DNA from: a virus
Length of the DNA stretch: 20,052 nucleotides
Reading direction: 5' to 3' (one strand)
IMG/VR virus record: IMGVR_UViG_3300047559_000236
Span: 1-20,052 of that record
Shown here: piece after piece, positions 7,843 to 20,052 of the stretch
How the letters are laid out: each line of letters starts with the position of its first letter
Numbering within the stretch: position 1 is the first letter of the stretch
Position numbers and translations under genes: made by a program
Notes under the pieces: generated by a model
The model's input: only the letters and a program-made list of their open reading frames with translations
Told to the model about the DNA's origin: nothing
Databases searched by the model: none

Positions 7843-8490
7843 ATGAAACTAATCAAAGAAGCATTTCAGGACCTGCAATACCTAAACGAGGAAGCCAACG
7901 GTAAGAAGTCGGTTTTCATCGAAGGTATTTTCATGCAGGCAGACAAAAACAATCGCAACGGCCGACGCTATCCCATGTCGGTCATGGAAAAAGAGCTGGA
8001 TCGTTATCAGTCCATGATCAACGAGAAGCGTAGCCTGGGTGAATTGGGCCATCCCGATAATCCCAGCATCAATTTGAATCAGGTTAGCCACCTGATTACA
8101 AATCTAAGATTCGAAGGCAAGGACATCATTGGACGTGCCAAGATCTTGGAAACACCCATGGGTAAGATTGCTCGCAACTTTATCGAAGAGGGAGTGCGCC
8201 TGGGTGTCAGTAGTCGCGGACTGGGAAGTCTAAAAGAAGGGCGCGATGGAATCATGGAAGTCCAGGACGACTTTCATCTAGCAACAGTAGACATTGTTGC
8301 CGATCCAAGTGCTCCCGATGCATTCGTGGCTGGCATCATGGAAGGTGCTGAATGGGTACTCCAGAATGGAGTCTGGACCAGTGTTCAGGTTGAAGCAGCG
8401 CAGAAGCACATGAAAAAAGCTTCGGCAGCGCAACTGGATGAGGCCAAGCTACAGGTCTGGGAATCATTCATGAAAATCCTTTCAAGGTAA
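7843..8490 (+). CDS. 21: Prohead core protease, gp21-like
   Basis: A 215-residue serine protease of the T4 gp21 family (T4 212), which has a herpesvirus-assemblin-like fold. Visible motifs are NRNGRRYP at 37-44, GELGHP with H70 as the likely catalytic histidine, and GVSSRG at 121-126 with the catalytic serine at 123 or 124. A VDIVADPSAPDAF segment follows at about 149-161. The enzyme matures the capsid by cutting core proteins and the gp23 N-terminus after (I/L)-x-E sites, and also destroys itself. Possible self-cleavage sites include ILE at 101-103 and LDE at 198-200. It sits 4 bases after the unidentified gene and directly before scaffold and capsid, the canonical order. Confidence 0.95.
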   Translation: MKLIKEAFQDLQYLNEEANGKKSVFIEGIFMQADKNNRNGRRYPMSVMEKELDRYQSMINEKRSLGELGHPDNPSINLNQVSHLITNLRFEGKDIIGRAKILETPMGKIARNFIEEGVRLGVSSRGLGSLKEGRDGIMEVQDDFHLATVDIVADPSAPDAFVAGIMEGAEWVLQNGVWTSVQVEAAQKHMKKASAAQLDEAKLQVWESFMKILSR

Positions 8491-8497
8491 ACTTTCT

Positions 8498-8505
8498 TAT
8501 AAATA
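8498..8505 (+). promoter_or_regulatory. T4-type late promoter before gp22
   Basis: An exact TATAAATA lies in the 52-base gap between gp21 and gp22. The downstream AACGGTAA is identical to that at the gp18 promoter. AGGAG lies just before the gp22 ATG. Confidence 0.85.
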
Positions 8506-8542
8506 AACGGTAACAGAATAAGATTCATTTAGGAGATTCTAA

Positions 8543-9658
8543 ATGTCAGTAGATAGTAAAATCAAACAGTTGCTAGAGCGCCTGGAAGGCAAGAAGGTTG
8601 TTGCCGAAGCCGAGGAAATGGGTGCTGGCTCTGTTAGCAAAGACACAACCATCAAGGCAGCAAATGCTGGCGACACCACTGCTCCAATGCAGGGTAGCAG
8701 CGAGCATGCAAGCCACGAAGACCGCGACGGCGAAGCTGATGAAAATCAGGGCGCCAAGGCAAGCGCTTCCATGGCCAAAGCAGTTGCCCCCGCAGCCACT
8801 GGCGCAGGCGATGCACCTAACTTCAAGACAGTTGCCAAAGAAGAAACTGAAACCGAAGAAGAAGTCGTAGCCGAAGAAACCGAAGAAGAAGTCGTAGCCG
8901 AAGAAACCGAAGAAGTTGCCGAGACAGTAGTCGAAGCCATCGATCTCAGCCCAATCTTTGGTGCCGAACTTAGCGAAGAATTCAAAGAGAAAGCAACCAG
9001 CATTTTTGAAGCTGCTGTTGTTGCCCGTGTAAACCACGAAGTTGAGAAAATCAACGCACAGCTAGACGAAAAGTTTGCTGAAGACGTTGCTGAGTTCCAA
9101 CAGCAAATCGTGGAGAAAGTAGATTCCTACCTCAACTATGTGGTAGAAAACTGGATGAAGGAAAACGAAGTTGCAATCGAGTCAGGTCTCCGCACCGAGA
9201 TTGCCGAGGACTTTATCCAAGGTCTCCAGGTACTATTCAAAGAACATTACATTGAAGTACCTGAAGAGAAATATGATGTACTAGGTGACCTAGAAGCCAA
9301 GGCAGATGAACTGAACACTAGACTGAACAGTGCAATCAGTGAAAATGTCGAGCTGAAACAACAGGTTGTTGAGATGAAACGCCTGGCTGTTATCGAAGAG
9401 ATGAGCAAAGATCTAGCTGACACCGAAGTTTCCAAACTTGGTAAACTTCTTGAAGGCGTGAAATTTGATGACGAAGCAACATACAAGCAGAAAGTCGAAG
9501 TTATCAAGGAGAACTACTTCCCCAAGAAAGCTGCTGCTCCTGCTGTTAGTGCACAGCCTCTGGTCGAGGATGTCGAGTCCGCTGCTCCAACCATGGCCGA
9601 GGATAGCACGGTTGCCAAGTATGCCCAGGCTCTCTCAAGATCCATCAAACGTAAGTAA
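8543..9658 (+). CDS. 22: Prohead scaffolding core protein, gp22-like
   Basis: A 371-residue, very acidic protein between the protease and the major capsid gene, the place of T4 gp22 (269 residues). Residues about 20-130 are low-complexity (A, E, T, V and G), including two copies of a nine-residue Glu/Val-rich unit. The rest is strongly helical and coiled-coil-like (for example EKATSIFEAAVVARVNHEVE, then LDEKFAEDVAEFQQQIVEKV), with a conserved-looking end MAEDSTVAKYAQALSRSIKR. The scaffold fills the prohead, guides capsid shape and is degraded by gp21 before packaging. The protein is about 100 residues longer than in T4, mostly through the N-terminal acidic expansion. It has its own late promoter and an AGGAG site. 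Confidence 0.92.
   Translation: MSVDSKIKQLLERLEGKKVVAEAEEMGAGSVSKDTTIKAANAGDTTAPMQGSSEHASHEDRDGEADENQGAKASASMAKAVAPAATGAGDAPNFKTVAKEETETEEEVVAEETEEEVVAEETEEVAETVVEAIDLSPIFGAELSEEFKEKATSIFEAAVVARVNHEVEKINAQLDEKFAEDVAEFQQQIVEKVDSYLNYVVENWMKENEVAIESGLRTEIAEDFIQGLQVLFKEHYIEVPEEKYDVLGDLEAKADELNTRLNSAISENVELKQQVVEMKRLAVIEEMSKDLADTEVSKLGKLLEGVKFDDEATYKQKVEVIKENYFPKKAAAPAVSAQPLVEDVESAAPTMAEDSTVAKYAQALSRSIKRK
8852..8915 (+). repeat. 27-bp tandem repeat inside the scaffold gene (2.4 copies)
   Basis: The 27-base unit beginning ACCGAAGAAGAAGTCGTAGC occurs exactly twice (8852-8878 and 8879-8905). A 10-base partial third copy follows at 8906-8915. The unit is in frame and encodes TEEEVVAEE. The perfect nucleotide identity suggests a recent slippage duplication in the acidic linker. 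Confidence 0.9.
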
Positions 9659-9660
9659 TT

Positions 9661-9668
9661 TATAAATA
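9661..9668 (+). promoter_or_regulatory. T4-type late promoter before gp23
   Basis: An exact TATAAATA starts 3 bases after the gp22 stop. TTAGGAG lies before the ATG of the major capsid gene. The expected start of transcription, about 6 bases after the motif, leaves a leader of about 24 bases. Confidence 0.88.
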
Positions 9669-9697
9669 ATCGAAAGAATCCCTTAGGAGACCCAATA

Positions 9698-10990
9698 ATG
9701 TTTCTTTCCGAACAACTTCAAACCAAGTGGGCGTCAGTTCTTGACCACCCTGATCTTCCAGAGATCAAGGAAAGTTATAAGCGTCAGGTAACTGCAGTTC
9801 TTCTTGAGAACCAAGAAAAAGCTCTGCGTGAAGAGCGTTCAGCACTTCTGCAAGAGACCCCAGCTAACGCAGTACAAGGCAACAGTGGTTCCACAGCCAT
9901 CGGTACCTATGATCCAATTATGATTGGTCTAGTTCGCCGTGCAATGCCAAACCTAATGGCTTATGACATCTGCGGCGTTCAGCCAATGACTGGTCCTACA
10001 GGCCTTATTTTCGCAATGCGCGCTTTCTATGGTTCCGATCGTGCTCCAGCAAGCGGTACAGAAGCTTTGTTTAACGAAGCCGATACCGATTTCAGCGGTG
10101 CAGGTACACACAGTGGTGCAATCAGCAACATCCTAGCAACTGGTAGCTATACCACAGGTACAGCAAATACCACAGCTAACATGGAAGCTGCTTCTGATTA
10201 CAACGAGATGTCATTTGGTATCGACAAGACAACTGTTACTGCTAAGAGCCGTGCTCTAAAGGCAGAGTACACAGTTGAACTTGCACAAGATCTGAAGGCA
10301 ATCCATGGTCTTGATGCCGAAGCTGAACTAAGCAACATCCTCAGCCAAGAGTTCATGTTTGAGATCAACCGCGAAGTTGTTCGCCTGATCTATAAGGTAG
10401 CCAAAGTTGGTAGCCCAGCTACTGCAGCTCCTGGTACTTTTGACCTTGACGTTGACTCAAATGGTCGTTGGAGCGTCGAGCGCTTCAAGGGTCTGCTGTT
10501 CAATATGGAACGCGATGCTAACCATATTGCACAAGATACACGTCGCGGTAAAGGTAACCTGATCGTTTGCTCAGCAGACGTTGCAAGTGCCCTGGCCATG
10601 GCTGGTGTTCTTGACTATGCTCCTGCTCTAAGCACAGGCCTCAACGTTGATGACACAGGCAATACATTTGCTGGTGTACTGAACGGTCGTTTCCGTGTTT
10701 ACATCGACCCATACACAGGCAACCTTGGTGCAGCTAACCAGTTCTACATGGTTGGTTACAAAGGCTCAAGCCCATATGACGCAGGTATCTTCTACTGCCC
10801 ATACGTTCCTCTTCAGATGGTTCGTGCTATCGATCCTAACAGCTTCCAGCCAAAGATCGGCTTCAAGACACGTTATGGTCTGATCGCTAACCCATATGTT
10901 ACACAGGCTAACGGTACAGTTGACGCATCGACATTCACTGCTGACCGTAACCACTACTACCGTAAGACCCGCGTTGTAAACCTAATGTAA
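9698..10990 (+). CDS. 23: Major capsid protein precursor, gp23-like
   Basis: A 430-residue precursor of the T4 gp23 family (T4 521), with an HK97-type fold expected. The first 53 residues form the charged helical delta region (FLSEQLQTKWASVLDHPDLP). A good gp21 cleavage site, L51-Q52-E53, precedes TPANAVQ. The core has family segments YDPIMIGLVRRAMPNLMAYD, CGVQPMTGPTGLIFAMR, ALKAEYTVELAQDLKAIHGL and DAEAELSNILSQEFMFEINR. The C-terminus shows KIGFKTRYGLIANPY. It forms the hexamers of the head. It has its own late promoter and is followed by a strong terminator, consistent with very high late expression. It is about 90 residues shorter than T4 gp23, a size common in environmental T4-like phages. 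Confidence 0.97.
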   Translation: MFLSEQLQTKWASVLDHPDLPEIKESYKRQVTAVLLENQEKALREERSALLQETPANAVQGNSGSTAIGTYDPIMIGLVRRAMPNLMAYDICGVQPMTGPTGLIFAMRAFYGSDRAPASGTEALFNEADTDFSGAGTHSGAISNILATGSYTTGTANTTANMEAASDYNEMSFGIDKTTVTAKSRALKAEYTVELAQDLKAIHGLDAEAELSNILSQEFMFEINREVVRLIYKVAKVGSPATAAPGTFDLDVDSNGRWSVERFKGLLFNMERDANHIAQDTRRGKGNLIVCSADVASALAMAGVLDYAPALSTGLNVDDTGNTFAGVLNGRFRVYIDPYTGNLGAANQFYMVGYKGSSPYDAGIFYCPYVPLQMVRAIDPNSFQPKIGFKTRYGLIANPYVTQANGTVDASTFTADRNHYYRKTRVVNLM

Positions 10991-11034
10991 TTTTGCATTA
11001 GATTTTAAACCGGCGTCAAGATCGGTAGAAATTT

Positions 11035-11058
11035 AGGGGGCCTTAGGGCCCCTTTTTT
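11035..11058 (+). terminator. Intrinsic terminator after gp23
   Basis: A six-base-pair GC-only stem (GGGGCC at 11037-11042 with GGCCCC at 11047-11052, loop TTAG) is extended by weaker pairs and followed by a run of six T (11053-11058). It lies 45 bases after the capsid stop and separates the morphogenesis block from the next transcription unit. Confidence 0.92.
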
Positions 11059-11064
11059 ATCGGG

Positions 11065-11072
11065 TATAAATA
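11065..11072 (+). promoter_or_regulatory. T4-type late promoter immediately before the tube-like gene
   Basis: An exact TATAAATA lies 6 bases after the terminator T run and is followed by CAAGT, as at the promoter before folE. T4 late transcripts start about six bases beyond this element, which falls on or next to the A of the ATG at 11078. No ribosome binding site is visible in between. Confidence 0.78.
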
Positions 11073-11077
11073 CAAGT

Positions 11078-11647
11078 ATGTACACAGCCAACGTATCAGC
11101 ACTCACTAGTAATTGGACTAATTCACGTCCAACTACGGTAAACTTCCTCAGACCAAACAGCTTCCAGTTTTTGGTCCAGGATCTGCCCAACGCTAGTTTT
11201 ACATGTCAGAGTGCCAATCTACCAGGTCTGAATTTAGGGTTCGCAATTCAATCGACACCTTTTACAGATTTGTCTAGAATAGGAGACAAAATGAATTTTG
11301 GTGACTTCACCATTAGATTCATTATCTCGGAGGACATGGGAAATTATCTAGAACTGTATCGCTGGCTCATAGCATTGGGATTTCCCTATGACTATGATCA
11401 GTATAGCGCATTTGTTGATTCGCGCAAAGATCGTTTTCCATATAACAGACTTGAAGCTGGCGCTCATAGCGATGGCACACTATTGATTATGAACAGTTCG
11501 AACAATCCTGGCATCATGATTAGATTTCATGACCTATTTCCTATAAGTCTTGAAGCTCTGGATTTTGATGTAACAGGCTCAACACTGGAATATTTCACTG
11601 CTATAGCATCATTTAGATATAAAAGATTTGATGTTGAAGTATTATAA
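11078..11647 (+). CDS. Second tail-tube-fold protein (gp19 paralogue; tube-cap or tail completion candidate)
   Basis: A 189-residue protein whose layout follows the gp19 fold. It has an N-terminal RPNSFQFLVQDLPNASFTCQ, the loop NLPGLNLGFAIQSTPFTDL, GDKMNFGDFTIRFIISEDMG, then an amphipathic helix YLELYRWLIALGFPYD. C-terminal strands RFHDLFPISLEALDFD, then EYFTAIASFRYKRFDV, close the fold. The order of elements matches the gp19 gene at 4818, but sequence identity looks low. In T4, gp54, gp48 and some completion proteins share this fold, so it may be a tube initiator or terminator rather than the main tube. The start is the only plausible one: no ATG, GTG or TTG follows for many codons. The message may be leaderless. 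Confidence 0.82.
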   Translation: MYTANVSALTSNWTNSRPTTVNFLRPNSFQFLVQDLPNASFTCQSANLPGLNLGFAIQSTPFTDLSRIGDKMNFGDFTIRFIISEDMGNYLELYRWLIALGFPYDYDQYSAFVDSRKDRFPYNRLEAGAHSDGTLLIMNSSNNPGIMIRFHDLFPISLEALDFDVTGSTLEYFTAIASFRYKRFDVEVL

Positions 11648-11681
11648 CTAACTTATAATTCGTTATTGAATTGGAGTAATT

Positions 11682-12650
11682 ATGTCAGAATCTGAAAAAC
11701 CAACAGCACCTACATCAGTGCCCCCTGTAAGTCTAAGTACTTTTCCTCCAGGGTTTGACCCCAGCAAAATGTTGCCTGGTACGCCTGGCAATCCAGCCAG
11801 CCAGGCTGGTATCGCTCCGCTTCCTCCTGGCGCACCAGGTCCCAATCAGCAAATGGTTAGTGTAAAGCTCGAAGATTTGCAAAAGGAACGAATCTTTGTA
11901 GCCACACCCTGCTATGGTGGCGCACTCACTGAACCATATTTCAGAAGCACCATCAAGCTTCTGACTTTCTGCAATCAGCATAAAATTCCCCTGGCCTTTG
12001 GTACCATTGCCAACGAAAGTCTGGTAACACGAGCACGTAATGTTCTGGTTGCTTACTTTCTGCAAAGCAACTTTACCAGACTCATGTTCATTGATGCAGA
12101 CATTGAATATCAGGTTGAAGATATTGTCAAACTTCTGTATCATGACCGTGACATTGCGGTCGGAGCCTATCCCAAGAAGGGCGTAAACTGGAGTCGTATT
12201 CGCGATGCCAGCCGCAAAGCTCCAGATGCCGAACAATGGACTGAGCGTGACATCGCCAGCTTTGGTAGTGACTATGCAGTCAATTTCAAGTTTGTAGATC
12301 AGGAAAAGCGTCAGATTGCTGTTGAGCGTGGATTGGTCAAAGTGCATGATGCAGGAACAGGGTTCATGATGATCAAGCGCAGTGTTATTGATAAAATGAT
12401 TTCTGCCTATCCCGAGCTTGCCTATAACAATGATCTGAACATTGGCGCAGATCTCAAAGGACTGTTTTATAGTTTCTTTGACACCATGATCGATCCCAGG
12501 GATCGTCGTTACCTGAGCGAAGACTATACCTTCTGCCGTCGCTGGCAGGCTCTGGGCGGTGACATTTTCCTTGATCCAACCATTAGCCTAAACCATTATG
12601 GTAGTTTCTGCTTCCAGGGCAATCCAGCCCAGATCATAAACTTTACCTAA
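11682..12650 (+). CDS. GT-A-like glycosyltransferase with proline-rich N-terminus
   Basis: A 322-residue protein. Residues 1-60 are rich in P, G, S and A (for example LSTFPPGFDPSKMLPGTPG) and probably disordered. The catalytic part starts near residue 68 with ERIFVATPCYGGALTEPYF. It continues with NESLVTRARNVLVAYFL and then FTRLMFIDADIEY, where D138-A-D140 is the DxD-type metal and nucleotide-sugar site. A C-terminal LNHYGSFCFQGNP contains a histidine that could complete the metal site. Proteins of this type are frequent in environmental T4-like phages; the acceptor is unknown and could be virion protein, DNA base or cell-surface glycan. GGAG lies before the ATG. It sits between structural and recombination genes. 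Confidence 0.8.
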   Translation: MSESEKPTAPTSVPPVSLSTFPPGFDPSKMLPGTPGNPASQAGIAPLPPGAPGPNQQMVSVKLEDLQKERIFVATPCYGGALTEPYFRSTIKLLTFCNQHKIPLAFGTIANESLVTRARNVLVAYFLQSNFTRLMFIDADIEYQVEDIVKLLYHDRDIAVGAYPKKGVNWSRIRDASRKAPDAEQWTERDIASFGSDYAVNFKFVDQEKRQIAVERGLVKVHDAGTGFMMIKRSVIDKMISAYPELAYNNDLNIGADLKGLFYSFFDTMIDPRDRRYLSEDYTFCRRWQALGGDIFLDPTISLNHYGSFCFQGNPAQIINFT

Positions 12651-12664
12651 TCGTAGGATATATT

Positions 12665-13102
12665 ATGAAATTATCGGAGCTCCAGGATGCCTGGGAAGCT
12701 GATAGTAAAATTGATTTTACTAACCTAGGGCAGGAGTCGGTTCGTACACCGCTCCTGCATGCCAAGTACGTGAATTGGATGGGCAGTGTCCGTCTAAATC
12801 TCAGAAAGGCTGAAAGCGAATACCTTTCACTACGTCGTAAAAAATATCGCTACTATCGTGGCGAAATGACCAGAGACGAACTCGAAGCCGAAGGCTGGGG
12901 TCAGTACCAGGGAAACAAACCTCTGAAAAACGAAATGGATGAATTCCTGACTACCGATCCTGACCTCATTGTTCAGCAGGACAAGATTGAATACTTCAAG
13001 ACTGTTCTAAATCAGCTCGAACAAATCTTGCGCAGCATCAATAGTCGAACCTGGGACGTGAAGAACAGTATTGAATGGTATAAAATGCAAAACGGAATGT
13101 AA
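12665..13102 (+). CDS. uvsY: UvsY-like recombination mediator
   Basis: A 145-residue protein resembling T4 UvsY (137 residues). It starts with MKLSELQDAWEADSKIDFTN and continues with a basic, helical middle (LRKAESEYLSLRRKKYRYYR) and a C-terminal helix pattern LNQLEQILRSINSRTWDVKN. UvsY loads the UvsX recombinase onto single-stranded DNA coated with gp32 in recombination-dependent replication. The call is strengthened by the next gene, a UvsW helicase, which is the T4 neighbour. AGGATAT lies before the ATG, and the stop overlaps the uvsW start (TAATG), implying coupled translation. UvsX is not in the window. Confidence 0.88.
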   Translation: MKLSELQDAWEADSKIDFTNLGQESVRTPLLHAKYVNWMGSVRLNLRKAESEYLSLRRKKYRYYRGEMTRDELEAEGWGQYQGNKPLKNEMDEFLTTDPDLIVQQDKIEYFKTVLNQLEQILRSINSRTWDVKNSIEWYKMQNGM

Positions 13103-14610
13103 TGCCAACTGTTGTAAAAATCTCACACAGGGATGCAGCGTATGCAAAAGTAAACTGCGAAGATGTCGGAGTTCTGCAAGAGATCTCCGATCACTTCACG
13201 TTTGATGTTCCTGGAGCCAAGTTCCATCCGTTGTACAAGTCCAGAATGTGGGATGGTAAGGCCAGATTATTCAATATGATGGCGCGGGAGATATATGTCG
13301 GACTACTACCCTATGTTGAGAAATTTTGTGCTGACCGCGACTATGCTTATGACAGTTCCGATGTCGAATACACAACGGGTCCAACTCGAGCCCAGGTGGT
13401 TGAGTTTTGCCAGAGTCTCAAACTAGGCAGTCGCGGCCAGCCTCTGGAGATTCGTGATTATCAGGTCGATGCAGTATACCAGGCTCTGAAAATGGGTAGA
13501 AAATTATTGCTAAGCCCAACAGGATCGGGCAAGAGCCTGATCATATACTGTTTGGTTCGCTGGTGCCTGGAACAGAATTGCCGCCAACTAATCATAGTGC
13601 CAACAACAAGTCTGGTTGAGCAGTTATACAGCGACTTCCAGGATTATAGTTGTCTGAACGGTTGGAAAGCCAGCAACAATGTTCATAGAATCTATGGCGG
13701 TACAGAAAAATCCAATCAGTTTCCCGTAGTAATCAGCACCTGGCAAAGCCTGTATAAATTGCCTAAACAATTCTTTGCACCGTTTCATGCAGTCTATGGT
13801 GATGAGGCTCATTTATTCAAGGCCAAGAGTCTGAGTAATATCATGAACAAGTGTGTGAATGCCTATTACCGTTTTGGCACTACAGGTACACTGGATGGGC
13901 TCAAGACTCATAAACTGGTTCTGGAGGGCATGTTTGATCCAGTGTACAAGGTCACTACTACCAAAACTCTGATGACCAATCAGCAGTTAGCCGAGCTCAA
14001 AATCTTCAATATCGTCTTGGAGTATCCAGATACCGTTAGACAGGCCTGCAAGAAATACAATAACAACAAGGGACTGACCTATCAGCAAGAAATGGATTTC
14101 TTGGTGAACTATGCCAAACGAAATATCTTCATTCGAAACCTGGCTCTAGATCAAAAGGGCAATACCCTGGTCCTGTTTCAGTTCGTTGAAAAACACGGCA
14201 AGCAATTGTTTGATATGATACAGGAACGATCAGGTGATCGTTCGGTATTTTTCGTCTATGGCGGAACCGATACTGAACAGCGTGAGCAAATTCGTCAATT
14301 GACAGAACAAGAAGATGGTGCTATTATTGTAGCAAGTTATGGGACATTCAGTACAGGCATCAATATCAAAAACCTGCACAACATTATTTTCGCCAGTCCG
14401 AGCAAGAGCAGAGTTCGAAATCTGCAAAGTATTGGTCGTGGTCTACGAACCAGCGAAACCAAGCAAAGTGCCAGGCTCTATGATATTGCCGATGACCTAA
14501 GCTGGAAGTCACATAAGAACTACACGCTACTGCACATGATCGAGCGTGTGAAAATATATAATGAAGAGCAGTTCAACTATCAACTTGTAAAGGTAAAATT
14601 AGATGAGTAA
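13102..14610 (+). CDS. uvsW: UvsW-like SF2 DNA/RNA helicase
   Basis: A 502-residue helicase matching T4 UvsW (503). The first 110 residues form the small N-terminal domain (FHPLYKSRMWDGKARLFN). The motor shows a Q-type motif RDYQ at 118-121, Walker A SPTGSGKS at 138-145, motif Ia VPTTSLVEQL at 167-176, DEAH at 234-237 and TGT at 261-263. In domain 2 come VASYGTFSTGINIKNL and the arginine-finger motif SIGRGLRTSETK. UvsW unwinds R-loops and branched DNA and drives the switch from origin-dependent to recombination-dependent replication. It overlaps UvsY by 1 base and the next gene by 8. A perfect 9-bp inverted repeat lies inside it at 14224-14243. Confidence 0.95.
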   Translation: MPTVVKISHRDAAYAKVNCEDVGVLQEISDHFTFDVPGAKFHPLYKSRMWDGKARLFNMMAREIYVGLLPYVEKFCADRDYAYDSSDVEYTTGPTRAQVVEFCQSLKLGSRGQPLEIRDYQVDAVYQALKMGRKLLLSPTGSGKSLIIYCLVRWCLEQNCRQLIIVPTTSLVEQLYSDFQDYSCLNGWKASNNVHRIYGGTEKSNQFPVVISTWQSLYKLPKQFFAPFHAVYGDEAHLFKAKSLSNIMNKCVNAYYRFGTTGTLDGLKTHKLVLEGMFDPVYKVTTTKTLMTNQQLAELKIFNIVLEYPDTVRQACKKYNNNKGLTYQQEMDFLVNYAKRNIFIRNLALDQKGNTLVLFQFVEKHGKQLFDMIQERSGDRSVFFVYGGTDTEQREQIRQLTEQEDGAIIVASYGTFSTGINIKNLHNIIFASPSKSRVRNLQSIGRGLRTSETKQSARLYDIADDLSWKSHKNYTLLHMIERVKIYNEEQFNYQLVKVKLDE

Positions 14611-15085
14611 TCTCAACTGCAAGTATATCAAACTTAGCAATGGAGAAAATATTATTTGTCTGACCGACGATAACATGGAAAATTTGGAAACGAATAGACG
14701 TGTCCTAATTACCGACCCCATGATGGTTAGTTTAGTTCGTGTACCTCGCCTTGGTGTTGGCGTAGTTGATAGTTATGTATTACATCCCTGGATGCCTCTG
14801 AGCGAGGATAAAATCATGGAGATCAATACAAGCTGTATCATCAGTGCAGTAGAAGCCAAAGCAAGCTTCAGAGAACAGTATGAAAACTTTATTGATCAGA
14901 TGAACAATGAAAAACTCATACCTGCTGAAGAAAGAGAAACAGCTCGGGATCTAAGTAACGCACAAGAGCTCATGAAGGCACTTGTCGGTGACATGGATGT
15001 AGATCTTGATGAAATTTTAGAGGAACAGGAAGATGACGACGACAGCTGGCTCAGAGCAACAGGTACAGGCCGCACCCTCCACTAA
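14603..15085 (+). CDS. LSm-like small phage protein of unknown function
   Basis: A 160-residue protein. The first 85 residues look like a small beta-barrel of the Sm/LSm type: KYIKLSNGENIICLTDDN, RRVLITDPMMVSLVRV, YVLHPWMPLSEDKIMEINTS, then IISAVEAK. Proteins with this layout (short barrel, a WMPLS-like turn, then a helical tail) are common hypotheticals in environmental T4-like phages. The C-terminal half is helical and ends in a strongly acidic run (residues 133-150). RNA binding is suggested by the fold only and is not demonstrated. The gene overlaps uvsW by 8 bases and shares 53 bases with the gp55 gene in another frame, so the three are likely read from one message. Confidence 0.65.
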   Translation: MSNLNCKYIKLSNGENIICLTDDNMENLETNRRVLITDPMMVSLVRVPRLGVGVVDSYVLHPWMPLSEDKIMEINTSCIISAVEAKASFREQYENFIDQMNNEKLIPAEERETARDLSNAQELMKALVGDMDVDLDEILEEQEDDDDSWLRATGTGRTLH

Positions 15086-15629
15086 GAAAGCAGGTGCACA
15101 TTACGTAGACAATAAAAAATTCTACGAAGAACTAAAAAAGTATCGTGAAAGTGTTGATCAGGCCATACTAGAGGGACGTGAAAAACCGCAGATAAGCAAC
15201 TATCTGGGCGATTGTTTTATCAAGATTGCAACACATCTGAGCTACAAGGCCAATTTTATAAATTATACATTCAAAGACGATATGATATCGGATGGCATTG
15301 AAAATTGTCTGTCTGCTGCCGATAAATTTGACCCCAGTAAATCAACCAATCCTTTTGCCTATTATACCCAGATCGTTTACTTTGCCTTTATCCGAAGGAT
15401 TCAAAAGGAAAAGAAACAGCAGGCAACCAAATACCGTTTGATCGAAAACCTGGATCTGGATGATATCCTAACCAGTGAAGATGCCGACCTAAACGATTTT
15501 AGCAACCAATTCCTAGACTACATGAAGAAGAAATTGGATCAGATTGACATAGACAAACGAACCATGAAAAAACCGAAAAGTAATGTTTTAGCCGAAGAGG
15601 ATGATTCCTCTATTGACACCGACAACTAA
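15033..15629 (+). CDS. 55: Late transcription sigma factor, gp55-like
   Basis: A 198-residue protein of the T4 gp55 family (T4 185 residues), a minimal sigma factor that directs host RNA polymerase to TATAAATA late promoters. The diagnostic part is a region-2-like segment at about 80-130: DDMISDGIENCLSAADKFDP, then NPFAYYTQIVYFAFIRRIQK and EKKQQATKYR. The C-terminus is charged, and in T4 it contacts the gp45 sliding clamp and the polymerase flap. The start chosen is ATG 15033, inside the upstream gene, with AGGAACAGGAAG before it; this gives a 24-residue low-complexity N-terminus before the conserved HYVDNKKFYEEL. A later start would remove conserved residues. It links directly to the late promoters found in this window. 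Confidence 0.92.
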   Translation: MTTTAGSEQQVQAAPSTKKAGAHYVDNKKFYEELKKYRESVDQAILEGREKPQISNYLGDCFIKIATHLSYKANFINYTFKDDMISDGIENCLSAADKFDPSKSTNPFAYYTQIVYFAFIRRIQKEKKQQATKYRLIENLDLDDILTSEDADLNDFSNQFLDYMKKKLDQIDIDKRTMKKPKSNVLAEEDDSSIDTDN

Positions 15630-15664
15630 ATACAATACAATTCAGGCTCTGAACAAGGAAAATC

Positions 15665-16510
15665 ATGGCAAAACTAAAAATCTCCGAATTATTTTATAGC
15701 ATCCAGGGTGAGGGAAGATACATGGGAGTCCCCAGTGTTTTCCTCAGAACTTTTGGTTGCAACTTTACCTGTGACGGCTTTGGAATGCCCAAAGGAGAGA
15801 AATCCAATGAGCGAAATGTTATCGCGGTCCAGGCAGATACTTTTACGGACTATCGAAGCCTGCCTCTCGTACATACTGGCTGTGACTCTTATGCTAGCTG
15901 GGATGTTCGTTTTAAGCATCTGTCTCCTGTTCTTAGTACTGACTCTATTGTTGAGTCCATTATGGGTATGTTACCTCATGGTCAGTGGAAAGATGAACAT
16001 CTTGTCATTACAGGAGGTGAGCCGTTGCTGGGCTGGCAAAGATCATATCCAGACCTTTTACAGGAACCGCGAATGATTGCTCTGAAAGAGCTGACATTTG
16101 AAACCAACGGATCACAAGAACTAACCCGAGAGTTTTCTGAGTATCTGAAAATTCATTGGCGCAAGGGTTGGGAGCGTCTTACTTTTAGTGTAAGTCCAAA
16201 GCTAAGTATCAGTGGTGAGAAATGGTCAGAGGCAATTCGTCCTGACATCATTGTAAATTATGAAGAACATGGTTATGTTTATTTGAAGTTTGTTGTAGCT
16301 ACCAAGGAAGATCTAGATGAAGCCAAACAAGCAGTCAGCGAGTATCGTCAGGCTGGTTTCAAAGGTCCTGTGTATCTTATGCCCTGCGGTGGTACTGACC
16401 AGCTGTATTTCCTCAACAACAGGGCCGTTGCTGAGCTTGCAATGTCGGAAGGGTTCAGATACAGCGATAGATTGCAAGTACCACTTTTCAAGAACGCCTG
16501 GGGTACCTGA
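15665..16510 (+). CDS. queE: QueE-like radical SAM 7-carboxy-7-deazaguanine synthase
   Basis: A 281-residue radical SAM enzyme, longer than E. coli QueE (223). It begins with the QueE signature KISELFYSIQGEGRYMGVPS, then FLRTFGCNFTC with C32 and C36. The third cluster cysteine is not in the usual close position; GFGMPKGE and about 30 residues intervene before GCDSYASWD with C73. VITGGEPLLGW at about 114-123 is the SAM-binding GGEP motif. QueE contracts 6-carboxytetrahydropterin to 7-carboxy-7-deazaguanine, in the preQ0 pathway. AAGGAAAATC lies before the ATG. With FolE and a DpdA-like protein downstream, it most likely feeds DNA base modification rather than tRNA queuosine. The spacing variant is discussed as a finding. 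Confidence 0.9.
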   Translation: MAKLKISELFYSIQGEGRYMGVPSVFLRTFGCNFTCDGFGMPKGEKSNERNVIAVQADTFTDYRSLPLVHTGCDSYASWDVRFKHLSPVLSTDSIVESIMGMLPHGQWKDEHLVITGGEPLLGWQRSYPDLLQEPRMIALKELTFETNGSQELTREFSEYLKIHWRKGWERLTFSVSPKLSISGEKWSEAIRPDIIVNYEEHGYVYLKFVVATKEDLDEAKQAVSEYRQAGFKGPVYLMPCGGTDQLYFLNNRAVAELAMSEGFRYSDRLQVPLFKNAWGT

Positions 16511-16546
16511 TTATGCGCAGAGTAACGAAATAGTAGAAGCCCGACC

Positions 16547-16693
16547 GTGGGTAAAAAGGTAGTATTTCCAAGCTGGTGTTGTCAAATCTGCGGCGAGCAC
16601 ATAGGATGGCTCGGCCGCATTTTCGCGTTTCTGTTACCACGGTATCATCAATGTCAGGACCCACACAGGGACCAAGACAACCTAGGCGTATAA
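16547..16693 (+). CDS. Putative 48-residue zinc-binding protein between queE and folE (GTG start)
   Basis: An unlisted short frame starts at GTG 16547 and ends in a TAA that lies inside the following late promoter. The peptide has WCCQICGEHIGWLGR (residues 10-24), then RYHQC with H34 and C36. This gives a plausible CxxC...HxC zinc site (C12, C15, H34, C36), and C11 is also present. The tail is hydrophilic and charged. Short proteins with a C-x2-C-G...IGW(L/I)GR pattern are familiar to me from environmental T4-like phages, without known function. No ATG occurs in this frame after the stop at 16523, and the ribosome binding site is weak. The gene would otherwise leave a 245-base gap in a very compact genome. 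Confidence 0.6.
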   Translation: MGKKVVFPSWCCQICGEHIGWLGRIFAFLLPRYHQCQDPHRDQDNLGV

Positions 16694-16696
16694 ATA
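16689..16696 (+). promoter_or_regulatory. T4-type late promoter before folE
   Basis: An exact TATAAATA is followed by CAAGT, as at the promoter at 11065. It lies 60 bases before the folE ATG and overlaps the stop codon of the small upstream frame. Its position shows that folE starts at 16756 rather than at the earlier in-frame ATG at 16576. Confidence 0.8.
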
Positions 16697-16755
16697 CAAG
16701 TGCCACACAAAGGTGGCAAATTCAATTATCAAGTCCGCGTAAGGAAGGATTCAAG

Positions 16756-17427
16756 ATGTCATATAACAAGACAAAAACCGACCCTGAACTGGGTCAAAGA
16801 GTTCACGAACATTTGGTCAAGATGGGTGTTGAAACTCCCGTAACCAAATCAGGCTTTGATCGCAAAACCCAAATCGAAAAGATTGAGCAGAACTTTACTG
16901 CTATCATGACCATACTGGGTCTGGATCTGACTGACGATAGTCTGGCAGAGACGCCTAAGCGTGTGGCCAAGATGTATGTCAATGAAATTTTCTGGGGTCT
17001 GGACTATGACGCATTTCCCAAGTGTACCACAGTCGACAACAAGATGAAATACGACGAAATGGTTGTGGAGAAAAATGTCATTGTTCAAAGCAACTGCGAG
17101 CATCACTTCGTGATTATTGATGGTCTGGCAACCGTGGCCTATATTCCAAACCAAAAGGTTCTGGGACTGAGTAAAATCAATCGCATTGTTGAGTACTTTA
17201 GCAAGCGTCCGCAGATTCAGGAACGTCTAACCGAACAAGTATACTTTGCATTACAGTATATTCTGGATACAGATAACATTGCTGTTGTTGTCAAGGCACA
17301 GCATTACTGTGTCAAGAGTCGTGGTGTTGAAGATACTGGCAGTCATACCGTTACTGCTAAACTTGGTGGTTGTTTCAAGTCTGACCCCGCAGCTCGTGCA
17401 GAGTTCATGGCCATAGCAAATAGCTGA
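16756..17427 (+). CDS. folE: GTP cyclohydrolase I (FolE)
   Basis: A 223-residue protein, almost exactly the size of E. coli FolE (222). It converts GTP to dihydroneopterin triphosphate, the first step toward folate and toward 7-deazaguanines. Zinc and active-site residues are visible: C114 with H116 and H117 in SNCEHHFV, and H183 and C185 in AQHYCVKSRG. Further FolE motifs are DDSLAETPKRVAKMYVNEIF, VAYIPNQKVLGLSKINRIVE and SRPQIQERLTEQ-like (KRPQIQERLTEQ). AAGGAAGGA precedes ATG 16756. An upstream in-frame ATG at 16576 would add 60 residues, but that stretch has no FolE similarity and spans the late promoter. Placed between queE and a DpdA-like gene, it probably supplies precursor for base modification. 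Confidence 0.95.
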   Translation: MSYNKTKTDPELGQRVHEHLVKMGVETPVTKSGFDRKTQIEKIEQNFTAIMTILGLDLTDDSLAETPKRVAKMYVNEIFWGLDYDAFPKCTTVDNKMKYDEMVVEKNVIVQSNCEHHFVIIDGLATVAYIPNQKVLGLSKINRIVEYFSKRPQIQERLTEQVYFALQYILDTDNIAVVVKAQHYCVKSRGVEDTGSHTVTAKLGGCFKSDPAARAEFMAIANS

Positions 17428-17434
17428 GGTTGTC

Positions 17435-17935
17435 ATGAACAATATTATGATTGACATTGAGACTCTGGGTGTTCAGCCTAATTCCTGCATACTAAGCATC
17501 GGTGCTGTACGGTTTACAGACACTGAGCTCAAGGATGGCTTCTATGTCAATGTCGATCCAGCAACCTGTAAAGAGATTGGCATGACCATAGACAAGTCTA
17601 CGGTCGAATGGTGGAAGGGTCAGCCAAAACAGGTACGAGATAGCCTTTTGGTAGACCAGAAGCCATTGACAGAAGCTCTGAGAAGTCTTAGAATGTGGAT
17701 AGGTCCAGGTAAACCAAATATCTGGGCCAATGGTCCTGATTTTGATCTAGTCATACTTAGTCAGGCCTTTGAACTTTTGGGAGACAATCCTCCCTGGACA
17801 TTTAGACAGTATCGTTGCTATCGTACCATGTCCAGGCTGGTAGATGTTCCTCGACCCGAATCAGGTCTGAATCACAATGCGTTTGATGACGCCAAAACAC
17901 AGGCTCTGCATCTAATAAAAATACTAGGAAGTTGA
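17435..17935 (+). CDS. DEDDh 3'-5' exonuclease, RNase T/DexA-like
   Basis: A 166-residue exonuclease of the DnaQ-like superfamily. It has the Exo I motif MIDIETLG (D7, E9), Exo II NGPDFD (D102, with D104) and Exo III HNAFDDA (H147, D152). These are the four acidic residues plus histidine of the DEDDh class. The compact form with TVEWWKGQ near residue 56 resembles the phage exonuclease family that includes T4 DexA (227 residues) and the Rv2179c-type exoribonucleases. The substrate (DNA or RNA) cannot be told from sequence. It sits between folE and the DpdA-like gene, 7 bases after the former and 1 base before the latter, so it is co-transcribed with the modification genes. The ribosome binding site is weak (GAGG). 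Confidence 0.85.
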   Translation: MNNIMIDIETLGVQPNSCILSIGAVRFTDTELKDGFYVNVDPATCKEIGMTIDKSTVEWWKGQPKQVRDSLLVDQKPLTEALRSLRMWIGPGKPNIWANGPDFDLVILSQAFELLGDNPPWTFRQYRCYRTMSRLVDVPRPESGLNHNAFDDAKTQALHLIKILGS

Positions 17936-17936
17936 T

Positions 17937-19223
17937 ATGTTTGAATACGTTGGAAGCGGTACAAGTTATTTCAAACTCATGTATGAAGAAAGCTATCGTC
18001 CAGAAAACATGGACGTGTTTGCACAGACCTATGGCAGTCTAAATGGTCAGCATGATCACAAGATTAGTCTCTTGTACAATGCTTTTACTGAACGACGTAC
18101 TGGTCCCAGACTAAAAGAAAACTATGCCAAGTATCTGCATAGCATTCATGCAGACTCAGGTGGTCTGCAGATCATTACTCTGGGTAAAACAATCACACCC
18201 GAGCTCAAAGAAGAAATCTATGCCAATCAGGCACAGAATTCAGACATTGCCATGTGCTTTGATATGATACCAGTACGAGTTCTAAGTGATAGATCCGAAA
18301 GACTGGATCTGGAAAATCGCAGGTTTGATCCCAGTATGCTGGAATCCTGTGCTCGTGAGACTGGAAAAAATCTAAGACGCCAGATTGACCATTTTGACGA
18401 AAAGAAAAGCTCGGCTCGTCCCATGCTAATTACCCAGGGTAATGATTATGACAGCTACATGAAATGGGTTGAATATGTGGCAGCTGAACTCACACCCTAT
18501 CACATTGGTCGCATTGGCGGTATCGCCATGGGAGCTGCTGCTCTGGGCAAAGGACCGCTCGAAGATATCAAGCGCGCATTTTATTTCACACAACTGCCCA
18601 TTGAACTAGAAAGTCGACATCTGCACTTACTGGGTGTGGGCAGTGTGTATCGTATGTTGCCTAACATAGTATTCATACAGAATGGACTGTACCAGGGTGT
18701 TCAGCTAAGCTATGATAGTACCACGCACACCAGCGGAGTAACACAGGGCAGATACTATATCAGCGGAGATCGTGTACTCAATGGCAAGTATAGATTTGCT
18801 GATTATCAGATGACATTCAATCGTGTATTTGACGACAACTATAGAATCATCTGGGAAGATATCTGTGATTTATTTCCTTGCATGAAGCAATACAGTCTGG
18901 ATACTTTTTACGAAGTGCTGCAGATCAGCGCCCGAACCTATGAAGAAAAGTATGGGAACATTGACCCCAGCATTCAGATCTATATTGCCTATGTAAGTGC
19001 CTGTATCAAGAATTTTATGCGTCATGTAGAGCGTGTAAATCAGAGTCAGGAAAATCTGATTGACTTTGCCAGAGGCACAGACAAGAATGCCTTCAAGTTT
19101 TTATATGACGTCAAGAACACCAATGATTTTGATAATTGGTTACGACATATTGGCAAGACCATAGAGTCCGAACCTGTCAAAGTCATGTCACCAGAATTTA
19201 ATTTAGAGGAGTTATTTGCATGA
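17937..19223 (+). CDS. dpdA: DpdA-like DNA 7-deazaguanine transglycosylase (TGT family)
   Basis: A 428-residue protein with the TIM-barrel marks of tRNA-guanine transglycosylase. These are HADSGGLQI at 71-79 (D73 aligns with the base-binding Asp of TGT), DIAMCFDMIP at 103-112, GGIAMGA at 194-200 (like GGLAVGE) and LHLLGVGS at 229-236. D260 in YDSTTHTSG fits the nucleophilic Asp position. The zinc motif CxCxxC...H of bacterial TGT is not seen; the C-terminal part (about 280-428) is different and helical. Phage DpdA proteins are TGT relatives that exchange guanine in DNA for a 7-deazaguanine. The folE and queE neighbours make DNA modification far more likely than tRNA modification. It ends in an ATGA overlap with the QueD-like gene. 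Confidence 0.85.
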   Translation: MFEYVGSGTSYFKLMYEESYRPENMDVFAQTYGSLNGQHDHKISLLYNAFTERRTGPRLKENYAKYLHSIHADSGGLQIITLGKTITPELKEEIYANQAQNSDIAMCFDMIPVRVLSDRSERLDLENRRFDPSMLESCARETGKNLRRQIDHFDEKKSSARPMLITQGNDYDSYMKWVEYVAAELTPYHIGRIGGIAMGAAALGKGPLEDIKRAFYFTQLPIELESRHLHLLGVGSVYRMLPNIVFIQNGLYQGVQLSYDSTTHTSGVTQGRYYISGDRVLNGKYRFADYQMTFNRVFDDNYRIIWEDICDLFPCMKQYSLDTFYEVLQISARTYEEKYGNIDPSIQIYIAYVSACIKNFMRHVERVNQSQENLIDFARGTDKNAFKFLYDVKNTNDFDNWLRHIGKTIESEPVKVMSPEFNLEELFA

Positions 19224-19624
19224 ACCTACAAAGATGGATCGAGGTAAGTTTACAGAAAGAAGGTATTCACAAGTACCCTGGTGCTGATACAGACCCCAAG
19301 TTAGCCACAGGTGATTGGGATGATGTAAGTTTCCTGGGAGTACCGCATCGTCATATTTTTCATTTCTATGCCAAGCTAGAAGTATTTCATAATGATCGTG
19401 AAGTTGAATTTATTCAGTTCAAGCGTTGGCTAGAGCGTCTCTTTGATCAGGGTACCATGCAGGCTAGTTTCAAAAGTTGCGAAATGATGGCCGAGGACAT
19501 GATTGAACGTATTCACGAAAAGTATCCTGGTCGTAATATCGAAGTTCGTGTCTATGAGGACAACGAGAATGGAGCTATTCTGATCTATGACAGGAATCAG
19601 GCTCTCAAAGTTTACCAGGCATGA
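19220..19624 (+). CDS. Divergent T-fold protein resembling QueD / 6-pyruvoyl-tetrahydropterin synthase
   Basis: A 134-residue protein that I align by eye with QueD (E. coli 121). GIHKYP (H17) matches the first zinc histidine region, and VPHRHIFHFYAKLEV (H43, H45) matches the HGH motif. REVEFIQFKRWLERLF matches the DF..LK helix, and SCEMMAEDMIERI matches the PTSE..A.WIW helix. NIEVRVYEDNENGAI places E113 at the catalytic or substrate-binding glutamate. The catalytic cysteine four residues before the HGH motif in QueD is absent. If active, it would make 6-carboxytetrahydropterin, the step between FolE and QueE. The family is common but usually unnamed in environmental phages. Its start overlaps the dpdA stop. 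Confidence 0.6.
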   Translation: MNLQRWIEVSLQKEGIHKYPGADTDPKLATGDWDDVSFLGVPHRHIFHFYAKLEVFHNDREVEFIQFKRWLERLFDQGTMQASFKSCEMMAEDMIERIHEKYPGRNIEVRVYEDNENGAILIYDRNQALKVYQA

Positions 19625-19645
19625 GGAAAAATAAGGAGTAAAAAC

Positions 19646-20052
19646 ATGGAAAAGATTGCCCTAGTTTCAGGCGGATTTGATCCAGTACACAGTGGTCACA
19701 TTCAGTTATTTGATTCTGCCAGACGCATGGCAGACAAACTGGTTGTGGCAACCAACAGCGATGAATGGCTTACTGCGAAAAAAGGTAAGCCTTTTATGCC
19801 AATGGCTGAAAGGCTGACGGTTCTAAGTCATTTGAACATGGTAGATCATGCCATTACCTTTCCCAATGATGCCAATGGAACTGCTATAAATGCAATCAAA
19901 ACTGTGCGTAGCATGTATCCTGAAGCTAGGATATTCTTTTGCAATGGAGGAGACAGAACTCGAGACAATATTCCCGAAATGGATTATGAGGATGATAATC
20001 TGAGTTTCCTGTTTGGGGTTGGAGGCTCAAACAAGGCCAATAGCAGCAGTGC
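19646..20052 (+). CDS. Nucleotidyltransferase of the HxGH (cytidylyltransferase-like) superfamily, cut by window end
   Basis: A frame opening at ATG 19646 after AAGGAG runs off the right edge with 135 residues visible. VSGGFDPVHSGHI contains the HxGH nucleotide-binding motif (H15-S-G-H18). ATNSDEWLTAKKGKPFMPMA with the K, then ERL and VLSHLNMVD, follow the pattern of RfaE/heptose-phosphate adenylyltransferases and glycerol-3-phosphate cytidylyltransferases. VGGSNKANSSS near the edge may be the start of the second nucleotide-binding motif (usually ISSTxxR). These enzymes join a nucleotide to a phosphorylated sugar, alcohol or cofactor precursor. The true substrate is unknown; a link to sugar activation or to the modification cluster is only suggested by position. 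Confidence 0.85.
   Translation, partial: MEKIALVSGGFDPVHSGHIQLFDSARRMADKLVVATNSDEWLTAKKGKPFMPMAERLTVLSHLNMVDHAITFPNDANGTAINAIKTVRSMYPEARIFFCNGGDRTRDNIPEMDYEDDNLSFLFGVGGSNKANSSS

Follow-up and report, generated by a model that had tools for sequence, protein, structure and literature searches.

Which modified guanine is made by a T4-like phage that encodes the first enzymes of 7-deazaguanine synthesis and a predicted DNA transglycosylase, with no QueC gene close by? The question is raised by a viral DNA of 20,052 nucleotides (IMG/VR record IMGVR_UViG_3300047559_000236, positions 1 to 20,052), the whole of which is here called the window. At the right end of this contig from a T4-like phage, the + strand encodes QueE, FolE, an exonuclease, a homologue of tRNA-guanine transglycosylase (TGT), a protein of 134 aa and the N-terminal part of a nucleotidyltransferase. 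An earlier note on the sequence had proposed that a T4-like phage here carries a cluster for 7-deazaguanine DNA modification; judged by the matches to QueE, FolE and the phage transglycosylase DpdA2 and by T4-like markers, this was right in kind. We consider it slightly more probable than not that the cluster belongs to a DpdA2-type hypermodification operon lacking a nearby QueC, in which the 134-aa protein, a T-fold protein of PHROG 17812, would convert 7-carboxy-7-deazaguanine (CDG), DpdA2 would insert the resulting base into DNA, and a glycosyltransferase would add a sugar.

The source record consists of the window alone, and the cluster continues beyond its end, with the contig stopping mid-operon; the rest of the cluster was therefore taken from relatives. 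One of these, the IMG/VR contig L094, has 99.93% identity to window positions 7937-20052 (12,116 bases), and its retrieved locus extends 9.2 kb further. The glycosyltransferase lies in that extension, outside the window and hence beyond the view of the earlier note.

The T-fold gene stands in the place of QueC

In the DpdA2 class to which the window belongs, the T-fold protein stands where QueC would. Phage ACP17 and its distant relative Mendera carry their gene sets at one and the same position, flanked by UvsX and primase, but the order in ACP17 is QueD-FolE-DpdA2-glycosyltransferase-T-fold-QueE, whereas that in Mendera is FolE-QueC-DpdA2-QueE; the two phages share 61% identity in UvsX, 50% in primase, 31% in DpdA and 24% in QueE. 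In nt-1 and pf16, the first two DpdA2 phages without a T-fold gene to be fetched, QueC adjoins DpdA2. Mendera also has a gene annotated as myo-inositol-1-phosphate synthase between FolE and QueC (L260 5505-6755).

QueC, reported missing by the earlier note, is indeed found neither in the window record nor in the whole 30.8-kb L094 record. Among 79 T-fold-carrying records, the Pfam model PF06508 found QueC over its cut-off in four (D479, L020, L205 and L211; by sample, one of 11 named phages, namely D479, one of 19 contigs and two of 49 contigs), at a distance from the T-fold gene of at least approximately 17 kb in each case, as calculated by hand from contig ranges. The matches in L020, L211 and L205 are short and lie approximately 17.5 kb, more than 60 kb and approximately 65 kb, respectively, from the T-fold genes; L089 has two matches below the cut-off. 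The Mendera QueC, as a positive control, was detected at 30.9 bits. A sub-cut-off match in phage X1 was rejected, the protein being an NAD synthase (PF02540 E 5.1e-30).

Our own QueC hidden Markov model, applied to 255 loci, gave none with both genes, 163 with the T-fold gene only, 82 with QueC only and 10 with neither; this model is insensitive (the Mendera QueC scored only 15.8 bits) and the Pfam searches are preferred over its count. The scans for related loci retained the best 80 loci each, such that distant members are under-sampled. A QueF-like gene is present in 53 of 80 QueC loci, and our models gave no match to QueC or QueF-like genes in loci of the window class. A family read from its protein start as class II glutamine-amidotransferase-like occurs in 77 of 82 QueC loci (e.g. 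L131:3164-3805). Carboxy-, cyano-, amido- and aminomethyl-deazaguanine had all been considered as the inserted base; the carboxy base, or its decarboxylated form, now fits better, because the other three need QueC, from phage or host, and the loci carry none nearby.

A glycosyltransferase gene accompanies the T-fold gene

Once 19 of 91 de-duplicated groups had been set aside for too little flanking sequence, a glycosyltransferase gene was found beside the T-fold gene in 65 of the 72 groups having 3 kb of flank on either side. It lies on the strand of the T-fold gene in 148/148 cases and downstream in 145, with a median gap of 198 bp. With our glycosyltransferase model, no match was obtained in 80 loci anchored on QueC. 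Grouping by all-against-all BLAST placed the enzyme in 81/84 loci with the T-fold gene and DpdA2, 64/79 with the T-fold gene without DpdA2, and 0/82 QueC loci. The model was trained on these same loci, a point against relying on it, and an independent Pfam control was therefore run on 18 T-fold and 18 QueC records of our choosing: PF00534 matched anywhere in 16 versus 5 records and, by hand-derived distances, within approximately 2.2 kb of the T-fold gene in 15/18 and within 8 kb of QueC in 1/18.

The predicted glycosyltransferase structure (pLDDT 92.5) has a GT-B fold and is nearest to glycogen synthase, BshA and MshA (best match E 2.7e-10). The 50 PDB rows listed are, judged by their titles, GT-B enzymes, one being titled trehalose-6-phosphate phosphatase N-terminal domain. 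E267 and E275 of the EX7E motif are invariant in a 17-row alignment, and E275 alone in a wider 26-row alignment. The glycosyltransferase, DpdA2 and T-fold profiles each gave no significant match to PDB sequences by hmmsearch.

An NAD-dependent epimerase family, which may act on a nucleotide sugar, is encoded within 8 kb of the T-fold gene in 49/163 loci (18/84 with DpdA2, 31/79 without) versus 1/82 QueC loci. With respect to the acceptor, T4-type glucosylation requires a dCMP hydroxymethylase of the PF00303 family. A search for PF00303 in eight long genomes or contigs of the DpdA2 class (BUCT-ZZ01, X1, ACP17 and five contigs of 149-213 kb) found none; T4-type hydroxymethylcytosine is therefore an unlikely sugar acceptor, and 7-deazaguanine would be the natural one. 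In L001, L014, L226 and L250 two glycosyltransferase genes frame DpdA2 and the T-fold gene; loci with a second such gene upstream of DpdA2 (e.g. L001, L014, L226) may build a disaccharide.

DpdA2 falls into two clades

The TGT homologue of the window and the DpdA2 of Vibrio phage nt-1 (YP_008125322) both match phrog_10773 (tblastn to nt-1, E 2e-36), and membership in this family predicts that the window enzyme probably inserts a 7-deazaguanine into DNA. It matches TIGR00430 (Tgt) at E 3.6e-7, below the cut-off, and E. coli TGT by hhalign with probability 94.6 (E 6.8e-8). The correspondence of D73 and D260 with TGT catalytic positions, anticipated in the earlier note, is borne out by sequence alignment, in which they align with D89 and D264 of E. 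coli TGT; both are invariant in 31 alignment rows. The Pfam TGT model PF01702 found 0/22 records, nt-1 included, and is uninformative as a negative.

DpdA2 splits into two clades that match the two gene sets. In the tree, which is unrooted and has several long branches, 39 T-fold-linked and 12 QueC-linked proteins lie on opposite sides of one branch (support 99/94); these are 39 of 83 and 12 of 17 proteins, with seven DpdA2 loci carrying neither marker, sequences below 350 aa and near-copies omitted. Ten positions differ between the classes, of which 199, 202 and 203 align with 213, 216 and 217 of E. coli TGT, in the GLAVGE loop that we take to bind the 7-substituent. Across the 34 of 56 loci used, pairwise distances of DpdA2 correlate with those of both the T-fold protein and the glycosyltransferase (rho 0.35 each, 0/999 permutations as high), and more weakly with those of FolE, QueE and QueD (rho 0.14-0.18).

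The T-fold protein has the fold of QueD without its catalytic cysteine

The AlphaFold2 model of the T-fold protein (pLDDT 93.2) gave, in a Foldseek search of the PDB, QueD or 6-pyruvoyltetrahydropterin synthase (PTPS) entries in the first 21 rows, E. coli QueD being the best (E 1.7e-3); the first 10 rows by VIA-align were likewise QueD or PTPS (PTPS 2dtt Z 11.4, QueD 4ntk Z 10.8). In a profile alignment to E. coli QueD, H17, H43 and H45 correspond to the zinc histidines and E113 to E110, and the position of the catalytic C27 is taken by Leu39. The PHROG 17812 protein thus combines a T-fold with the three zinc histidines by which a QueD would be recognised. H17, H43, H45 and Leu39 are invariant in 164/164 T-fold sequences, and S86-C87-E88 and E113 in all 163 with a residue at those positions; the residue equivalent to C27, four residues before HxH, is Leu in the same 164/164 and in 19/19 further loci from genome contigs.

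Nor is the T-fold protein the sole PTPS of the pathway. Of the 79 records, 63 contain a further PTPS match, distinct from the T-fold gene, at E <= 0.001, 62 of them over the Pfam cut-off (10/11 named phages, 12/19 contigs and 41/49 contigs, 40 of the last over the cut-off), and L094 itself encodes, 1.9 kb downstream of the T-fold gene, a true QueD that keeps the catalytic Cys and Asp-His. With a separate true QueD present and the catalytic Cys lost to an invariant Leu, the T-fold gene was rejected as the QueD of the pathway, the role in which the earlier note had cast it.

The family is common, with at least 595 confirmed matches in one scan of viral contigs. In Bakedbeans (L007 7212-8363) and MA9V-3 (L010 7431-8312) a longer open reading frame (ORF) carries the T-fold domain at its C-terminal end, preceded in MA9V-3 by an endonuclease VII-like domain.

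Genes of the window and of the overlapping contig

The ORFs of the window were confirmed at the coordinates given previously, and the four genes for QueE, FolE, the DpdA2-type enzyme and the T-fold protein are real, with matches far above chance.

15665 to 16510, + strand: QueE (phrog_2076 E 1.1e-52; TIGR03365 E 1.2e-14, far below the TIGR03365 cut-off)
16576 to 17427, + strand: FolE, GTP cyclohydrolase I (PF01227 E 1.8e-60, match from residue 103)
17435 to 17935, + strand: 3'-5' exonuclease (PF16473 E 1.1e-43; phrog_255 exonuclease)
17937 to 19223, + strand: predicted DpdA2-type DNA-guanine transglycosylase (phrog_10773)
19220 to 19624, + strand: QueD-fold T-fold protein without the catalytic Cys, 134 aa (phrog_17812 E 2.5e-27, a PHROG of unknown function)
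19646 to 20052 and past the window end, + strand: nucleotidyltransferase (RfaE domain II-like), N-terminal part (PF01467 E 2.7e-12)

The window QueE belongs to the phage QueE-like family PHROG 2076 and lacks a contiguous radical-SAM CX3CX2C motif, its translation having C32-X3-C36-X36-C73. The view that this QueE is unusual stands with respect to C73, 36 residues after CX3C, but it is not peculiar to this phage, the QueE of pf16 having the same layout by alignment. The first approximately 60 residues of the FolE ORF match nothing, for which reason translation probably begins at the ATG near 16756; the shortened form matches NF006824 at E 8.1e-98. The nuclease and the nucleotidyltransferase noticed among the cluster genes are both supported by the domain matches listed; the former is probably a DexA-like neighbour from outside the pathway. 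The start codon of the T-fold gene overlaps the stop of the DpdA2 gene. T4-like marks in the window are a late sigma factor (phrog_234) and a major head protein resembling those of S-SRM01 and Stenotrophomonas phages; PADLOC returned nothing relevant.

L094 completes the operon as follows.

L094:11710-12489: nucleotidyltransferase (RfaE domain II-like) fused to a mannose-6-phosphate-isomerase-type cupin, complete
L094:12456-13538: GT4-type glycosyltransferase
L094:13555-14073: true QueD, PTPS family (PF01242 E 3.8e-13)
L094:14081-14470: MazG/PRA-PH pyrophosphohydrolase
L094:14814-16010: FAD amino-acid-oxidase-like enzyme (D-amino-acid-dehydrogenase/ThiO-like)

Genes for SbcD-like and SbcC-like nuclease subunits and then a peptide deformylase follow. 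By our model, the FAD enzyme type is found in 5/82 loci of the DpdA2 scan.

A proposed pathway and its alternatives

FolE would convert GTP to dihydroneopterin triphosphate, and FolE, QueE and the QueD encoded beyond the window would together make CDG. The T-fold protein would replace QueC and act on CDG, most likely decarboxylating it to 7-deazaguanine; decarboxylation is favoured because the enzyme takes the position of QueC, has no nucleophilic Cys and retains both the metal site and the pterin/guanine-anchoring Glu. DpdA2 would then put the resulting base into phage DNA in exchange for guanine, and the adjacent GT4-type enzyme would attach a sugar to this base, the donor of which may be made by the nucleotidyltransferase/cupin fusion. 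From the gene set, gene order, folds, active-site pattern and gene replacement, as read from sequences and predicted structures, we infer every reaction after QueE, the DNA target and the sugar. After decarboxylation C7 would be a nucleophilic carbon, making a C-glycoside conceivable, and insertion of CDG itself would allow a glycosyl ester. To the occurrence of a glycosylated 7-deazaguanine in the phage DNA of this class we give slightly less than an even chance; in the boldest form of this reading, it would arise through decarboxylation of CDG by the T-fold protein, insertion by DpdA2 and formation of a C7 carbon-sugar bond by the GT4-type enzyme.

A number of observations weigh against the proposal. 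Once decarboxylated, 7-deazaguanine offers no hydroxyl to which a sugar could be joined as an ordinary O-glycoside; the acceptors of GT-B enzymes are diverse, and DNA-base glycosylation is a candidate role for this one. The glycosyltransferase is absent in 7/72 groups with room for it, including phiST, MA9V-3, RHph_I1_18, Ahp1, Bakedbeans and D479, and is therefore not needed for the core step; that of the window lineage in L094 scores 18.0 bits, below the Pfam cut-off of 26.4. All of the distance correlations are modest, that of the glycosyltransferase with the T-fold protein being lower still (rho 0.20, 17/999), and the glycosyltransferase shows no correlation with QueE (0.03, 287/999) or QueD (0.01, 359/999). 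The T-fold model has no Foldseek match at E <= 0.001, other T-fold enzymes also score well by VIA-align (Z 10.0 downward; QueF-like Z 9.9), and sequence support for a relationship with QueD is weak alone (hhalign probability 30, E 5.5e-4). D479 carries, 102 kb from its T-fold gene, a distant 268-aa QueC-like protein with SGIDS and CxxCxxC recognised by eye, and IMG/VR contigs are mostly fragments.

The groups without the glycosyltransferase, e.g. phiST, favour an alternative that we consider unlikely though deserving of real weight, namely that the T-fold protein is a CDG decarboxylase, that the DNA contains plain 7-deazaguanine (dDG), with or without CDG, and that the glycosyltransferase is a mere neighbour serving, e.g., virion or host surface glycans; its adjacency in 65/72 groups, always on the same strand and beside two DpdA-type families, is, however, hard to call chance. 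That the T-fold gene is a divergent QueD, with the phage inserting CDG or preQ0-type bases via a host QueC, would accord with the QueD fold and zinc histidines; moreover, the contig has no QueC and a host QueC could act, which counts against our own proposal as well. We nevertheless regard a divergent QueD as improbable, given the true QueD in the same L094 operon, the separate PTPS in most records and the invariant Leu at the catalytic Cys position.

The glycosyltransferase might instead act on another modified base, as in T4, which glycosylates hydroxymethylcytosine, the 7-deazaguanine genes then representing a second, separate DNA modification. A PF00303 protein is present in 4/6 tested T-fold records without DpdA2, but in none of the eight long genomes and contigs of the DpdA2 class, and the glycosyltransferase adjoins the T-fold gene; we accord this possibility little credence. 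Modification of tRNA rather than DNA, suggested by the TGT homology as such, appears to us highly improbable: the window enzyme shares its PHROG with the DpdA2 of nt-1, whose DNA has mainly dPreQ0 (PMC6884629), and in 6E351A, a phage of the same genus-level group, 15% of the dG is present as dPreQ1 (PMC12028318).

T-fold loci outside the DpdA2 class

In 62 of the 79 loci without DpdA2, a family of 517-540 aa with DSGGFQ ... FDC motifs is encoded near, mostly upstream of, the T-fold gene (L089:8132-9724, L004 (Paride):5233-6855 and 61 further ORFs). It aligns with DpdA2 by hhalign (probability 96.9, E 1.9e-10), and two members scanned had no Pfam or PHROG match; from its sequence it looks like another DpdA-type transglycosylase, present also in phage Paride. 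The Magnetospirillum contigs L268, L269, L271 and L272, two of them long (424 kb and 1.4 Mb), have a glycosyltransferase, the T-fold gene, a transglycosylase of the 517 type and a QueD-like gene in one row, and L273 (Rhodospirillaceae) and L270 (Deltaproteobacteria) have similar sets.

The actinobacterial loci L275 (5954-12234), L276 and L279 have the T-fold gene, QueD, QueE and FolE, without a glycosyltransferase or QueC match by our models. L275 is a prophage, with a ParB-like ORF recognised by eye and a possible, weakly assigned DpdA-like ORF before these genes and a terminase after them. The genome of the bacterium Streptomyces sp. NEAU-Y11 (L277 and L278, 7959-9624) has the T-fold gene next to QueD and FolE, with a FAD-binding oxidoreductase and a class III aminotransferase nearby and no phage gene among those examined; this locus is perhaps a 7-deazapurine natural-product cluster.

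Comparison with known systems

The name DpdA2 originates from work on Vibrio phage nt-1 (Hutinet et al. 2019, PMC6884629), the dPreQ0 of which amounts to 0.1% of guanine as cited in PMC12028318. Like the window phage, nt-1 is T4-like, has a DpdA2 of the same PHROG and carries FolE, QueD and QueE; in contrast to it, nt-1 has QueC beside DpdA2, whereas the window class has the T-fold and glycosyltransferase genes, no nearby QueC and a DpdA2 across the 99/94 branch. Phage 6E351A has QueC and QueF (PMC12028318). It shares with the window class the upstream FolE, QueD and QueE and a DpdA, but loci of the window class gave no match to QueC or QueF-like genes by our models. In the literature searched, among the matches listed and so far as their excerpts extend, no report of glycosylated 7-deazaguanine DNA was found; the excerpts of the MIJ3 paper (PMC6892783) hold nothing on DNA modification.

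If the proposal is correct, a large phage group coats its guanines with sugar through a 7-deazaguanine handle, PHROG 17812, a family labelled unknown, gains a testable function, and two kinds of DpdA2 phage are separated by the inserted base. The isolated phages BUCT-ZZ01, ACP17 and X1 are of interest in this regard, as is the PA5oct/Paride group with another DpdA-type gene; BUCT-ZZ01 infects a laboratory strain, Synechococcus elongatus PCC 7942.

Phages with dDG and dCDG were reportedly described by Cui et al. in 2023 (NAR), together with a proposed CDG decarboxylase, DpdL, with which PHROG 17812 may be identical. These systems resemble the window class in having CDG-derived bases without QueC. 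Phage phiST, reportedly one of those phages, carries the T-fold gene and has no QueC match, and that work is not known to include a glycosyltransferase. Our working analogy for the sugar is the glucosylated hydroxymethylcytosine of T4, in which a glycosyltransferase transfers sugar to phage DNA after replication; unlike T4, the genomes and long contigs of the window class searched have no gene of the dCMP-hydroxymethylase family (8/8), and the proposed acceptor is a 7-deazaguanine. In animal tRNA, mannosyl- and galactosyl-queuosine carry their sugar on the cyclopentenediol side chain. There too a sugar is added to a 7-deazaguanine nucleoside, though in tRNA rather than DNA and on a side chain that is not made in the window class. 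The insertion of 7-deazaguanines is an already known class of modification; should the T-fold family be DpdL, the T-fold part is known as well and the association with the glycosyltransferase remains new.

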